Positions 47,454 to 57,027 of a stretch of DNA of 64,000 nt are shown one piece after another. The notes below the pieces were generated by a model. The model was not told the DNA's origin and did not search any database. It saw only the letters and a program-made list of their open reading frames with translations. Every line of letters starts with the position of its first letter. Position 1 is the stretch's first letter. Location of the stretch: the NCBI RefSeq assembly GCF_030410135.1, contig NZ_JAUGQQ010000004.1, positions 62,001 to 126,000 on the forward strand. Direction: 5' to 3'. This DNA comes from Aequorivita aurantiaca. Lineage in GTDB: Bacteria > Bacteroidota > Bacteroidia > Flavobacteriales > Flavobacteriaceae. Made by a program: the position numbers and the translations under genes.

Positions 47454-48698
47454 TTATTTTGATGTGTTCTCAAAAACACAATCGATGCCTACCTTTTGCA
47501 AGTCTTCCCAAAACATTGGATATGATTTTGAAACCACCTGGGCGTTTTTTATAATTAGATTTGTTTTCATTGCCAAAGGCGCAAAGGCCATTGCCATTCG
47601 GTGATCTTGATAAGTTTCGATGGAACTGTTGGGGTTAATTTTGAAGGATTTTTCAAGAACTAATGAATGGTCATCAACGGTTATATTGGCGCCCAATTTT
47701 TTAAGTTCAATATTAAGTGCGGCGAGTCTATCAGTTTCTTTTATTTTTAATGTTTGCAGGCCTAAAAGTTTGCAACCGATTCCCAACCCAAAACAGGTTA
47801 CGGCAATTGTCTGCGCCAAATCTGGTGTGTTGGACAGATCGAGCATTAAGGAATCCGGCAATTCCGAAGTCTTTTTTGAAAGGGAAATTGTTTTTTGGGA
47901 AGCATCAAAAATCGTTTCAACTCCCAGGGATTTATAGATCTGCGCCAATGCAGCGTCACCCTGTCTGCTTTCCTCAGAAAAACTGGAAAGCGTAATTTCC
48001 AAATTATCCGAAAGGGCAACCAAACTATAAAAGTAGGAAGCCGAGCTCCAATCAGATTCCACAACTATTTCCGTTTTTAAAATAGTTTCAATGGAAGGAA
48101 TTGTAATTGTATTTTCACTGAAATCGCCCGAAATTCCAATTTTTTTCAAAAGCGAAAGAGTCATTTCAATATAGGGCGCGGAAGTTATATTGCCCTCCAA
48201 ATATATTGTCAAACCGTGGGGAAGATTCGGCGCAATCAGCATTAATGCTGAAATGTATTGGCTACTCACATCTGCATTTATCTTCACTTCTTTTTTCGAC
48301 AGTGATTTGCCTTTGATTTTCAGTGGCGGAAAGCCTTCTTTCTTGAGATATTCAATGTCGGCTCCAACGTTTTTTAATGCATCCACCAATATTGAAATAG
48401 GCCGTTCTTGCATGCGCTGGCTGCCGGTGAGCGTAATTTCCGCTCCTTCTTTTGCTGCAAAAAATGCAGTCAAGAAACGCATTGCAGTGCCCGCGTGATG
48501 CACATCCACAAGTCCAGTTTTTGTTTCCAAACCTTTTTTTAGAACAACCGTATCATCACTATCGGATAAATTTTCGATAGAAATATTTGGAAAAGATGCC
48601 TGTAGAATAAGTAATCGGTTCGACTCACTTTTAGAGCCGCCAATATTTATTTTGATATTTTTTTGGGGAATTGTTCCTCGTTTCAGAAGCACATTCAT
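47454..48698 (-). CDS. aroA: 3-phosphoshikimate 1-carboxyvinyltransferase (EPSP synthase)
   Basis: Sixth step of the shikimate pathway, 414 residues, the slightly short Bacteroidota form. GSKSESNR (21-28), HAGTAMRF (68-75), QERPI, SSQY, catalytic Asp in NTPDLAQTIA, KETDR and DHRMAM are all present. At the position of E. coli Pro101 (AMRP) there is Phe75, and the preceding Asn of NAGTA is His, which changes the glyphosate/PEP pocket wall. The stop of the small membrane protein overlaps its start by 4 bp (ATGA). With the DAHP synthase gene 6 kb upstream on the same strand it frames an aromatic cluster. Confidence 0.95.
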   Translation of the reverse strand: MNVLLKRGTIPQKNIKINIGGSKSESNRLLILQASFPNISIENLSDSDDTVVLKKGLETKTGLVDVHHAGTAMRFLTAFFAAKEGAEITLTGSQRMQERPISILVDALKNVGADIEYLKKEGFPPLKIKGKSLSKKEVKINADVSSQYISALMLIAPNLPHGLTIYLEGNITSAPYIEMTLSLLKKIGISGDFSENTITIPSIETILKTEIVVESDWSSASYFYSLVALSDNLEITLSSFSEESRQGDAALAQIYKSLGVETIFDASQKTISLSKKTSELPDSLMLDLSNTPDLAQTIAVTCFGLGIGCKLLGLQTLKIKETDRLAALNIELKKLGANITVDDHSLVLEKSFKINPNSSIETYQDHRMAMAFAPLAMKTNLIIKNAQVVSKSYPMFWEDLQKVGIDCVFENTSK

Positions 48699-53827: not shown

Positions 53828-54775
53828 TTACTTTTCATGAATATCCTTTCGGAAATGGTCCTCCTCTCCTTCCAAAATCTGCAAATAACTTTTGTAGCGC
53901 GACCAAGCAATCTCTTCATTTTCCAATGCCTTTTTTACGGCGCAGTGCGGTTCTTCCAAATGCAGGCAGTTGTTGAATTTGCAATCATTTTTCCTTTCGA
54001 AGAATTCGGGAAAGTAAACGCCAATTTCTTCTTTGTCCATCTCCACTACGCCAAAACCTTTAATTCCAGGGGTATCAATTATCTGTCCGCCAAAGGAAAG
54101 ATCAAACATTTCTGCAAATGTTGTGGTGTGCTGCCCCTGCAAATGTTGTTCTGAAATTTTTGAAGTTTTAAGGTGGAGGCCGGGCTCCAACGAATTTATG
54201 AGTGTAGATTTCCCCACGCCGCTATGGCCCGAAAACATTGAAACCTTATTTTTCATCAATGCTGTTACCTTTTCAATATTTTTTCCAGTAATGGCTGAAA
54301 TGCCAATGCATTCATAGCCGATTTTTCTGTAAAGCGCCGCCAGAAATTTTATTTCCAACAATTCGTCTTCGGTATAGGTATCAATTTTATTAAAAAGAAG
54401 TACTGCTTTTATGTGATATGCTTCCGCAGTAACCAAAAATCGGTCAATGAAAGTGGTGAAAGTGGGCGGATTATTTAATGTAACCAACAGAAAAGCAAGA
54501 TCTATATTGGCCGCAATAATGTGGGTTTGTTTTGAAAGATTTACAGATTTGCGGATGATGTAATTTTCCCTTTCGTCAATATGTTTGATAACGCCCACGG
54601 TTTCATCACCCTTCTTCTCAATTTCAAAATCGACGTGATCGCCTACCGCCACGGGGTTTGTACTTTTAATCCCGCCAATCCGGAATTTACCTTTGATGCG
54701 GCAATCGTAAAAGCTTCCATTTTCCGCTTTCACGGAATACCAACTACCGGTGGATTTATATACGATTCCTTTCAC
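53828..54775 (-). CDS. rsgA: Ribosome small-subunit-dependent GTPase A
   Basis: Circularly permuted GTPase for late 30S assembly; 315 residues from GTG 54775, which gives MKGIVYKSTGSWYSVK, the usual N-terminus. A TTG five codons above is the only other start. OB fold (~1-70), then G4 NKID (129-132), G1 GHSGVGKST (183-191), G3 DTPG (234-237), and a zinc motif Cys265, Cys270, His272, Cys278. 21 bp after the DAHP synthase-chorismate mutase stop. Confidence 0.95.
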   Translation of the reverse strand: MKGIVYKSTGSWYSVKAENGSFYDCRIKGKFRIGGIKSTNPVAVGDHVDFEIEKKGDETVGVIKHIDERENYIIRKSVNLSKQTHIIAANIDLAFLLVTLNNPPTFTTFIDRFLVTAEAYHIKAVLLFNKIDTYTEDELLEIKFLAALYRKIGYECIGISAITGKNIEKVTALMKNKVSMFSGHSGVGKSTLINSLEPGLHLKTSKISEQHLQGQHTTTFAEMFDLSFGGQIIDTPGIKGFGVVEMDKEEIGVYFPEFFERKNDCKFNNCLHLEEPHCAVKKALENEEIAWSRYKSYLQILEGEEDHFRKDIHEK

Positions 54776-54796
54776 AGCACAAATTTGCAAAACTTT

Positions 54797-55879
54797 TTAA
54801 TCATTCATAACTTTTTTCTGATGATTGATGGACTCTTGGTGAATGGCTTTGTACAATTTCAGCACAAATTCCTCACTTAATTTGTTGTGTTCACCTTCTA
54901 AAATCATGCGTCCCAAAACTTCATTCCATCGTTTAACCTGTAAAATGGCCACATTATTTTTCTTTTTAAGAAGCCCAATATTATCAGCAATTTTCATTCG
55001 CTTCCCGAGCATTTCCATCAGTTGGTCGTCAATCAAATCTATTTGTGTGCGCAGGGTGTTCAAATGATTGTTAAATTCCGCTTCATTGCCTTCCATCTTC
55101 CGAATTTTCAAGTCCACCGTCATTTTGTCGAGTGCTTTCGGGGTAATTTGCTGTTTTGCATCGCTCCATGCATTGTCTGGATCGAAATGGGTTTCAACCA
55201 TTAGTCCGTCGTAATTCAAATCTAGCGCGGTTTGGCAAAGGTCAAAAATAATATCCCTTCGGCCGGCAATGTGTGAGGGGTCCAAAATCAGTGGCAAATC
55301 GGGAAAACTATTCTGCAAATCTATCGGAATTTGCCATTCGGGATTATTTCTATACCGCGTTTTTTCATAAGTTGAAAAACCACGATGGATTACACCCAAT
55401 TTCGAAATGCCGGCTTCATAAAATCGTTCCACCGCGCCCAGCCATAGTGCCAAATCTGGGTTTACGGGGTTTTTTACCAACACAATCTTATCGGTTCCCT
55501 TTAAGGCATCTGCAATTTCCTGCACGATAAACGGCGAAACAGTAGTGCGTGCGCCCACCCAAAGTATATCAACATCGTGCTTTAGTGCCAAATCTACGTG
55601 GTTTGCATTTGCGACTTCGGTTGCTGTCAATAAGCCTGTTTCGTGTTTTGCCCTTTGGAGCCATTTTAATCCCAGCGCGCCCACGCCCTCAAAATTTCCG
55701 GGGCGGGTGCGTGGTTTCCATATGCCCGCCCGCAACACGGAAGTATCAGTTTCTTTAAGTTGGTGTGCAATTTTGAGGACCTGCTCCTCGGTTTCGGCAC
55801 TGCACGGGCCGGCAATTACCAACGGATGGCTCAGGCCGAATGCATCCAACCAATTTCGGAATTCCTTTTTGTTTTCCAT
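54797..55879 (-). CDS. Bifunctional DAHP synthase / chorismate mutase
   Basis: 360 residues from ATG 55879 (MENKKEFRNWLDAF). The DAHP synthase domain (~1-260), small class related to KDO8P synthase, has AGPCSAET (23-30), RAGIWKPRTRPG (50-61), LVKNPVNPDLALWLG and DPSHIAGRRD. A C-terminal AroQ chorismate mutase (~265-360; IDLIDDQLMEMLGKRMKIADNIGLLKKK, then VKRWNEVL) follows. It joins the first shikimate step to the branch to Phe/Tyr, a fusion known in Bacteroidota. The leader before it carries a Phe-Trp-Trp peptide and a terminator, so expression is probably set by attenuation. Confidence 0.94.
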   Translation of the reverse strand: MENKKEFRNWLDAFGLSHPLVIAGPCSAETEEQVLKIAHQLKETDTSVLRAGIWKPRTRPGNFEGVGALGLKWLQRAKHETGLLTATEVANANHVDLALKHDVDILWVGARTTVSPFIVQEIADALKGTDKIVLVKNPVNPDLALWLGAVERFYEAGISKLGVIHRGFSTYEKTRYRNNPEWQIPIDLQNSFPDLPLILDPSHIAGRRDIIFDLCQTALDLNYDGLMVETHFDPDNAWSDAKQQITPKALDKMTVDLKIRKMEGNEAEFNNHLNTLRTQIDLIDDQLMEMLGKRMKIADNIGLLKKKNNVAILQVKRWNEVLGRMILEGEHNKLSEEFVLKLYKAIHQESINHQKKVMND

Positions 55880-55891
55880 ATATTCAATTTC

Positions 55892-55918
55892 AAAAAAAAA
55901 GTCCCAATATGGGACTTT
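55892..55918 (-). terminator. Attenuator terminator in the leader of the DAHP synthase-chorismate mutase gene
   Basis: Stem AAAGTCCC / GGGACTTT (8 perfect bp, 5-nt loop) directly followed on the minus strand by nine T's, ending 12 nt before the gene's ATG. No minus-strand gene ends here, so it can only act as a leader terminator. Two alternative pairings block its upstream arm: UCCC with GGGA at 55945-55948, and AATAT (55930-55926) with ATATT (55910-55906). Confidence 0.85.
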
Positions 55919-55949
55919 CAAAAGTATATTATAAAATACAACAATCCCT

Positions 55950-56015
55950 TTAGCTAACGCTTCTCAAAAGATGCCACCAAAAATTGGATGTATTGAAGAT
56001 GTTATTTATGTTCAT
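55950..56015 (-). CDS. Trp/Phe-containing leader peptide of the attenuator
   Basis: 21-codon open frame, ATG 56015 to TAA 55950; residues 11-16 read NFWWHL, with two adjacent Trp codons (55974-55979) just after a Phe codon and another Phe at residue 7. The stop lies 31 nt before the terminator hairpin. The GGGA that can pair with the terminator arm starts 1 nt after the stop, so a ribosome at the stop would mask it while one stalled at Trp-Trp would not. This is the layout of a classical ribosome-controlled attenuator. It is too short for normal gene callers. Confidence 0.8.
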   Translation of the reverse strand: MNINNIFNTSNFWWHLLRSVS

Positions 56016-56020
56016 AGCGG

Positions 56021-56052
56021 CTAAAGTAGCCAATAAATGTGATTTTGAAAAC
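56021..56052 (-). promoter_or_regulatory. Candidate promoter of the leader transcript
   Basis: TACTTTAG on the minus strand (56028-56021) fits TAnnTTTG in seven of eight bases, with TTTTC about 18 nt upstream. Start of transcription would be within a few bases of the leader peptide ATG at 56015. Support is moderate. Confidence 0.4.
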
Positions 56053-56067
56053 GTTTTGGGAAAAATT

Positions 56068-56121
56068 TTAAAGGCCGAAGCGCCACCACTTCGGAAGAAA
56101 TTTGTGTAGTTTTGTTTTCAT
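56068..56121 (-). CDS. Second possible Trp-rich leader ORF
   Basis: 17-codon frame MKTKLHKFLPKWWRFGL followed by TAA. It also has adjacent Trp codons (56083-56088), which lie in the loop of a 6-bp hairpin CCGAAG/CTTCGG (56075-56094). It would be transcribed only if a promoter lies inside gldA; it also overlaps the gldA promoter. It may be a second sensor, a relic, or chance. Confidence 0.35.
   Translation of the reverse strand: MKTKLHKFLPKWWRFGL
56107..56114 (+). promoter_or_regulatory. Candidate -7 element for gldA
   Basis: TAGTTTTG matches TAnnTTTG, 13 nt before the gldA ATG at 56128. A short leader is implied. No clear -33 element. Confidence 0.4.
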
Positions 56122-56127
56122 AAAAAT

Positions 56128-57027
56128 ATGTCGATACAAGTAGAAAATATCACCAAAATTTACGGCCATCAAAAGGCACTGGACAATATTTCCTTTAAAA
56201 TAGAAAAAGGAGAAATTGTGGGTTTTCTTGGGCCTAATGGCGCCGGAAAATCTACGATGATGAAGATTCTCACAACGTTTCTGCCAGCCTCGGATGGGGT
56301 TGCATTTGTTAATGGTTTTGAGGTGAACAAAGATGATATTGACGTTAAGAAAAGCGTGGGCTATCTGCCCGAGCACAACCCGCTTTATTTGGATATGTAC
56401 GTTCGGGAATATCTTTTTTTCAACGCTGGAATTTATAATATTCCAAAAACTGAGGTTGAAAATGTAATTGAGAAAACGGGTTTATTGCCAGAAGCCAACA
56501 AAAAAATCGGTCAACTTTCAAAGGGTTACCGGCAGCGTGTTGGGCTTGCAAATGCGCTTTTGCACAATCCCGAAGTTTTAATTTTAGATGAACCAACCAC
56601 GGGCTTGGATCCAAACCAATTGATTGAAATCCGGCAACTCATAAAAAACGTCGGAAAAGAAAAAACAGTTTTGCTTTCCACCCATATTATGCAGGAAGTT
56701 GAGGCCATTTGCGATCGCGTAATTATTGTTAATAAGGGTGAAATTGTGCTCGATAAAAAACTGTCAGAATTAAAAAACAATAAGCAGCAAATTATTGAAG
56801 TAGAATTTGATTATCGCGTGGAAGAGGTGGCCCTACAAAAAATTCCGAAGCTTGAAAAGATTGAAAATTCAATAGGTTTTGTGTATCAACTCTATTTCGA
56901 GACCGAACACGATATGCGCGGAAAGGTATTCGATTTTGCGCACGACAATGGTTTAAAAATTCTTCAATTGCACCAAAAAAATACTACTCTCGAAAAACTA
57001 TTTTCTGAACTCACTATTCAAAAATAA
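56128..57027 (+). CDS. gldA: Gliding motility ABC transporter ATP-binding subunit GldA
   Basis: ABC ATPase, 299 residues: Walker A GPNGAGKST (35-43), signature LSKGYRQ (130-136), Walker B VLILDEP (150-156), D-loop GLDP and switch His in STHIM. The N-terminus MSIQVENITKIYG and the C-terminal accessory domain of about 80 residues fit GldA, which with the GldF/GldG membrane parts is required for gliding in Flavobacterium; gldFG are not in the window. A generic ABC-2 exporter ATPase is the alternative. Ends overlapping the convergent GIN gene by 14 bp. Confidence 0.85.
   Translation: MSIQVENITKIYGHQKALDNISFKIEKGEIVGFLGPNGAGKSTMMKILTTFLPASDGVAFVNGFEVNKDDIDVKKSVGYLPEHNPLYLDMYVREYLFFNAGIYNIPKTEVENVIEKTGLLPEANKKIGQLSKGYRQRVGLANALLHNPEVLILDEPTTGLDPNQLIEIRQLIKNVGKEKTVLLSTHIMQEVEAICDRVIIVNKGEIVLDKKLSELKNNKQQIIEVEFDYRVEEVALQKIPKLEKIENSIGFVYQLYFETEHDMRGKVFDFAHDNGLKILQLHQKNTTLEKLFSELTIQK

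Follow-up and report, generated by a model that had tools for sequence, protein, structure and literature searches.

The DAHP synthase-chorismate mutase gene (DAHPS-CM) of Aequorivita aurantiaca is preceded by a short leader peptide ORF with two adjacent Trp codons and by an intrinsic terminator. We conclude that this element is very probably a ribosome-controlled transcription attenuator that senses charged tRNA-Trp, and that it belongs to a Flavobacteriaceae attenuator that reads Phe/Tyr in pheA-keeping relatives. In 23 genomes, DAHPS-CM is preceded by a Trp-Trp leader, a segment 2 near the stop of that leader and a terminator, and the element is therefore more than a product of chance. In relatives that keep pheA, the leader reads Phe/Tyr, which the initial annotation had missed.

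The leader element and the genes around it

The window analysed here is a stretch of 64,000 nucleotides of the A. aurantiaca genome, and its features are given in Table 1. The initial annotation had placed the leader, the hairpin, the nine T's and the distance to the gene correctly, the hairpin being counted here as 9 Watson-Crick pairs. An intrinsic terminator is present between the leader ORF and the gene (55918-55892, minus strand). Its hairpin, AAAGTCCCA-TAT-TGGGACTTT (55918-55898), gains an outer G-T in the hairpin scan and is separated from the end of the leader ORF by AGGGATTG, a spacing of 31 nt. The nine T's occupy 55900-55892, and the ATG of DAHPS-CM (55879-55877) follows 12 nt further. 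TACTTTAG resembles the -7 box of the Bacteroidetes promoter consensus. It lies 5 nt upstream of the leader ATG, so that transcription of the leader may begin on the AUG or right beside it. A box of the form TAnnTT[TA]G is found upstream of the leader in 19/23 Trp-Trp, 11/11 Phe-rich and 13/18 Phe/Tyr cases.

Table 1. Positions of the leader element and neighbouring genes in the window
Feature	Position	Strand	Evidence
Leader peptide ORF MNINNIFNTSNFWWHLLRSVS, 21 codons, Phe12-Trp13-Trp14	55950-56015	-	sequence; Trp-Trp leaders at the orthologous position in 23 genomes
Leader stop TAA	55952-55950	-	sequence
Control codons Trp13-Trp14 (TGGTGG)	55974-55979	-	in all 23 Trp-Trp leaders by class definition
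Segment 2, GGGATT, 5' arm of the proposed antiterminator, one base past the leader stop	55943-55948	-	pairs with segment 3
Segment 3, AAAGTCCCA, common to antiterminator and terminator	55910-55918	-	sequence, hairpin scan, duplex energy
Segment 4, TGGGACTTT, and T-run: terminator 3' arm and tail	55892-55906	-	sequence, hairpin scan
Promoter-like -7 box TACTTTAG, 5 nt upstream of the leader ATG	56021-56028	-	sequence
DAHP synthase-chorismate mutase gene (DAHPS-CM)	54797-55879	-	PF00793, 137 bits; PF01817, 77.6 bits
rsgA, downstream neighbour, locus marker in relatives	53828-54790	-	TIGR00157, 229 bits (cut-off 100); synteny
gldA, divergent upstream neighbour, locus marker in relatives	56128-57027	+	TIGR03522, 453.5 bits (cut-off 402.6); synteny
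aroA, same strand as DAHPS-CM, ~6 kb downstream	47454-48698	-	PF00275

How the element could work is suggested by its layout, from which we infer stalling, termination and antitermination in the cell. When Trp is ample, the ribosome would get to the leader stop and hide segment 2, so that segments 3 and 4 would form the terminator upstream of DAHPS-CM. When Trp is scarce, the ribosome would stall at Trp13-Trp14, and the free segment 2 would pair with segment 3 and let transcription continue.

DAHPS-CM carries a DAHP synthase domain (PF00793) and a type II chorismate mutase domain (PF01817), all of its NCBIfam matches lie under their cut-offs, and it is 92% identical to the Aequorivita aquimaris gene. 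The interval from DAHPS-CM to aroA, whose co-regulation the initial annotation had raised as a possibility, has two minus-strand terminator-like sites, both within ORFs, and nine such sites in total compared with 8.5 in shuffles.

The initial annotation had left room for Phe as a second signal. We dropped it for the window genome because pheA and tyrA are absent: neither prephenate dehydratase (PF00800) nor prephenate dehydrogenase (PF02153, tyrA) has a match there, and trpC is present. Moreover, the residues flanking Trp-Trp vary among the 23 leaders, and Phe12 is not conserved. With these two profiles no enzyme using the chorismate mutase product was found in the window genome, and the attenuator would induce chorismate mutase along with DAHP synthase. 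The chorismate mutase domain (residues 276-355) is nevertheless well conserved in the Trp-Trp clade of the genus. Relaxed selection on it was considered and rejected: the ratio of chorismate mutase to DAHP synthase distances was 0.92 for the Trp-Trp genus rows (n=9), 1.30 for the Phe-rich rows (n=11) and 1.48 for the outgroups (n=17). Retention of the domain may reflect a role in allosteric control of DAHP synthase.

Taken alone, the region is unremarkable, and the case for the element is for that reason built on comparison. Whole-leader folding gave z -1.43, with 20/200 shuffles folding equally well, and 54500-56400 holds 3 terminator-like sites against 2.8 in shuffles. The terminator fold has -10.8 kcal/mol. 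The antiterminator pairing is short: the duplex of segments 2 and 3 has -9.0 kcal/mol (z -2.07, p 0.043; p 0.296 by a cruder six-base score). A genome-wide search for a TGGTGG-GGG-CCC pattern was uninformative, with 51 forward and 92 reverse matches versus 58 and 46 in the control.

Conservation of the leader and of its pairing

The comparison of relatives' intergenic regions proposed in the initial annotation supports Trp attenuation of DAHPS-CM. The terminator lies upstream of the gene in 23/23 Trp-Trp loci. The best segment 2, taken as the best duplex found per leader (7/23 reach p 0.05), starts -4 to +6 nt from the stop in 23/23 and 18-31 nt past the second Trp codon, also in 23/23. In permutations that ignore kinship among rows, done for the Trp-Trp and the Phe/Tyr sets, segment 2 pairs better with its own segment 3 than with permuted partners: the mean was -8.77 versus -7.71 kcal/mol in the Trp-Trp set and -12.22 versus -9.96 kcal/mol in the Phe/Tyr set, and 0/2000 permutations were as low in either.

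Pair changes in the Phe/Tyr set (n=18) support the pairing of segments 2 and 3, pair 3 being G-C in 7, G-U in 2 and A-U in 9. Pairs were counted on the raw sequences because MAFFT misplaces segment 2 by one base in some Phe/Tyr leaders; the counts cover 20/23 Trp-Trp rows (without L006, L026 and L259; L and G numbers are our loci and genomes), and the automatic choice was wrong for L111 and L252. Segment 2 starts at least 14 nt before the ORF end in 11/11 Phe-rich and 17/18 Phe/Tyr leaders, so that a ribosome at the stop would again hide it. In some relatives the off state might be aided by a pairing between segment 2 and the codons that precede Trp-Trp (mean z -1.76 over the 23 Trp-Trp leaders); this pairing is weak in the window (z -0.21).

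Leader codons and pheA content

DAHPS-CM was found in 27/28 Aequorivita genomes. Ten have the Trp-Trp leader and no pheA adjoining the gene. In 11, pheA lies directly upstream of the gene, and a Phe-rich leader (e.g. MSTIFTFNNFWFFYFKDRTGIVV) with a terminator precedes pheA. Six have neither Trp-Trp leader nor pheA; their leaders read MNTIFNFNNLWQFYFIK in G206, MNTIFNIINLWQFYFIK in G224, MKIHINYNICRICWHLLINCHQ in G202, MASGTPSIFVSDKSI in G209 and MKFRFTSLSFLNLKFIGSYKP in G221, and no clear leader or terminator was found upstream of DAHPS-CM in G201. A pheA protein search matched 11/28 genus genomes, and these are precisely the ones whose leader is Phe-rich; the PF00800 profile agrees, with 14/14 control genomes positive, and the negatives G201 and G203 are single-contig assemblies. 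The tyrA profile (PF02153) has no match in 27/28 genus genomes and one partial match of 27.9 bits in G199. In L114 and L115 (G206 and G224), pheA is gone and the leader is still mainly Phe; ~140 nt separate terminator and gene and contain TACTTTGC, which could be a bypass promoter. A search for a pheA remnant upstream of DAHPS-CM in these two loci gave a best E of 0.44.

The leaders may also follow Trp synthesis. The trpC profile (PF00218) matches in 22/28 genus genomes and is without a match in G201, G209, G221, G212, G210 (where the trp region reaches a contig edge just after the trpE start) and G214 (69% complete, with no DAHPS-CM match). Nine of the 10 Trp-Trp genus genomes have trpC, as do G225-G228. 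G201, G209 and G221 lack pheA, trpC and a Trp leader. The Bacteroid-trp leader is missing from these three genomes and from G216, which retains trpC. The exception among the Trp-Trp genomes, G212, keeps its Trp-Trp leader although its trp operon is a remnant of trp leader, trpG and a shortened trpD, without trpC and with no trpE-sized ORF listed.

Outside the genus, 22 genomes were drawn from 75 non-Trp-Trp DAHPS-CM loci and searched for PF00800, which was found in 19 and absent from L013, L055 and L080. A Phe/Tyr-rich leader with a terminator stands upstream of pheA in 19/19 of the pheA+ genomes (in L171 the leader lies further upstream). Trp-Trp occurs in 0/30 pheA+ leaders read (19 outgroup and 11 genus); a single Trp is common in them.

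A draw of 299 family genomes, each at least 90% complete, contained 23 without PF00800 (inferred for G326, G327 and G355). DAHPS-CM was present in 19/20 pheA-less genomes of this draw outside the genus, and 18 upstream regions were readable; L267 was not counted, its gene starting at a contig edge with the upstream sequence unreadable. Trp-Trp with a terminator was found in 10/18 (L251-L257, L259, L265 and L266, L251 being in the genome of L005), one Trp in the leader of L250, and no such leader in 7/18 (L258, L260-L264 and L268). Searches for the Bacteroid-trp leader gave no match in G041, G098 or G128, a congener of G355, nor in G225, a Marixanthomonas MAG. At L249 of the latter, the first gene of the trp cluster is a trpD-like ORF, which an unrelated ORF precedes, with no trpE or trpG in the stretch read (names assigned by eye except trpC).

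Altogether, Trp-Trp was found in 23/40 readable pheA-less genomes (16 of the genus, 4 named, 17 of the family draw, and L013, L055 and L080) versus 0/30 pheA+ genomes; we give no p-value because the rows are related. All 23 Trp-Trp genomes are without pheA (21 shown, 2 inferred), and among the 17 readable pheA-less genomes without Trp-Trp, four have one Trp (G202, G206, G224 and G101).

Homology of the leaders and direction of change

The two leader types occupy the same locus. gldA lies divergently upstream of pheA in 15/19 outgroup loci (the other four are short or without a match), and divergently upstream in 27 genus rows, in L004, L005 and L026, and in 14/19 family-draw loci; at L265 and L266 neither gldA nor rsgA is within reach. 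A model built only from pheA-linked leaders (24 of 29) matches the window leader at 55893-56009 with 37.8 bits (E 5.6e-4), and L265 and L266 at E 2e-6 and 6e-6. Among the 18 Trp-Trp sources, 4 have a match at E 0.01 or better (the window, L111, L265 and L266), and the model gave one wrong-strand match, in L160 (E 9e-4). These matches support homology of Trp-Trp and pheA-linked leaders for some members, and for the rest it is likely.

In the DAHPS-CM tree, Phe-rich and Trp-Trp genus members stand apart, and the latter join L004-L006 (support 94; 89 in a larger tree). In the gldA+rsgA tree, the genus is one group (100/99) in which both leader states are mixed, with L004-L006 outside. Since the two trees disagree, regain of a pheA cassette and repeated loss are equally possible, and exchange of the cassette within the genus is likely. 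L122/L242 (G212) is a mosaic, with the flanks and Trp-Trp leader of one clade and a DAHPS-CM gene that falls within the Phe-rich group. In L027/L177 (Kordia sp. NORP58 MAG), pheA is directly upstream of DAHPS-CM and 66% identical to an Aequorivita pheA, the pheA of other outgroup loci being ~42-50% identical; it is possibly the source or sister of the genus cassette.

Discussion

What we observe is the anatomy of the element, its conservation, the complementarity of segments 2 and 3, and the association of leader codons with pheA. In genomes that keep pheA the attenuator would read Phe/Tyr, in many cases alongside a single Trp, and in pheA-less genomes with trp it would mostly read Trp. From the match of the pheA-linked leader model and the matching of leader and pathway, one attenuator appears to have been re-set to the aromatic amino acid that is still made. 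We lean towards a single orthologous Flavobacteriaceae attenuator that on more than one occasion went from sensing Phe/Tyr to sensing Trp, tracking loss of pathway branches, and that dropped its Trp codons when Trp synthesis went.

The match between leader codons and pheA might instead be inherited linkage, in which a cassette of leader, pheA and gene was lost or swapped a few times and no selection re-tuned the codons. We regard this as possible but doubtful. The changes are few: pheA requires at least 4 and Trp-Trp at least 6. In the independent-pairs test, 2 pairs are supported (4 if every branch is used), a number at which significance is unattainable. Within the genus, gldA and rsgA do not separate the leader states, and in G212 a Phe-clade gene stands behind a leader and between flanks of Trp-Trp type. 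However, the gene tree has Trp-Trp leaders at no fewer than three separate positions (the Aequorivita group, L026/L259 and L265/L266), although long branches make some joins unsure, and a Trp leader is missing from the three genus members that have neither pheA nor trpC. Linkage by itself also does not explain why the new codons are those for Trp.

The short antiterminator of the window would fit an ORF that is no sensor, with a plain terminator or a short translated ORF reducing expression regardless of amino-acid supply. We consider this highly improbable, as Trp-Trp and its spacing from the stop and from segment 2 persist while the neighbouring residues vary, the codon run of pheA+ relatives is another one that matches their pathway, and permuted partners of segments 2 and 3 pair worse. 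It is also quite improbable that the leader was copied from that of the trp operon (Bacteroid-trp, RF01692) and is not an altered Phe/Tyr leader. Both carry Trp runs, the trp leader of the same genome reading MNRFTQNTWWWKNLRQTS. However, RF01692 is not among the nine Rfam matches in the window at E up to 10 (49 bits needed), and its sole match in this genome lies upstream of the trp operon (57.3 bits, gathering score 49). The pheA-linked leader model, which matches the window leader, passes over the trp leader of L093, and gldA and rsgA flank both leader types.

The reading that we prefer, a Trp-sensing attenuator derived from a Phe/Tyr-reading one, has relatives among known systems. Attenuation controls the trp and phe operons in Proteobacteria. 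Those attenuators share with the window element a leader peptide with control codons, a terminator and an alternative antiterminator, but the window element acts on the common first step, with codons that vary with pheA content among relatives. The Bacteroid-trp leader, listed in PMC2864571 and named for F. psychrophilum in PMC6414381, likewise has a Trp-coding leader and alternative structures at a biosynthetic operon in Bacteroidetes; the window element differs in its gene, DAHPS-CM instead of trp, and in its sequence. An Rfam scan of the window at loose thresholds gave nothing at gathering score: Phe_leader (RF01859) was rejected at 20.8 bits (E 2; gathering score 55), and no T-box is among the nine matches. 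Apart from two tRNAs in L181, nothing in the 19 pheA+ outgroup loci and one Phe-rich locus reached the gathering score of an Rfam family. Phe/Tyr-coding uORFs upstream of shikimate genes are described in PMC6429828 for the five genomes of that study and, like the flavobacterial leaders, tie Phe/Tyr codons to shikimate metabolism; its main text does not contain the word Flavobacter, and the text available describes no change of specificity. Our literature search, with subscription journals mostly outside its scope, found no Phe/Tyr leader in Flavobacteria and no altered specificity.

Attenuators are textbook regulators, and the gain of a different amino-acid specificity is rarely visible. Here, a single locus is found in several states among close relatives (Phe/Tyr ahead of a long operon, Phe-rich with pheA present, Trp-Trp where pheA is missing, and no Trp where both pheA and trpC are missing), which allows the change to be followed and tested. 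The Phe/Tyr attenuator upstream of pheA in all the pheA+ genomes outside the genus is itself without an Rfam family at gathering score. The pheA-less genomes are predicted, from their gene content, to be auxotrophic for Phe and Tyr. If our reading is true, the leader peptide would reveal the aromatic amino acids whose synthesis a genome has kept, with states that can be compared within one genus, and leader codons would be a cheap genomic hint of auxotrophy.
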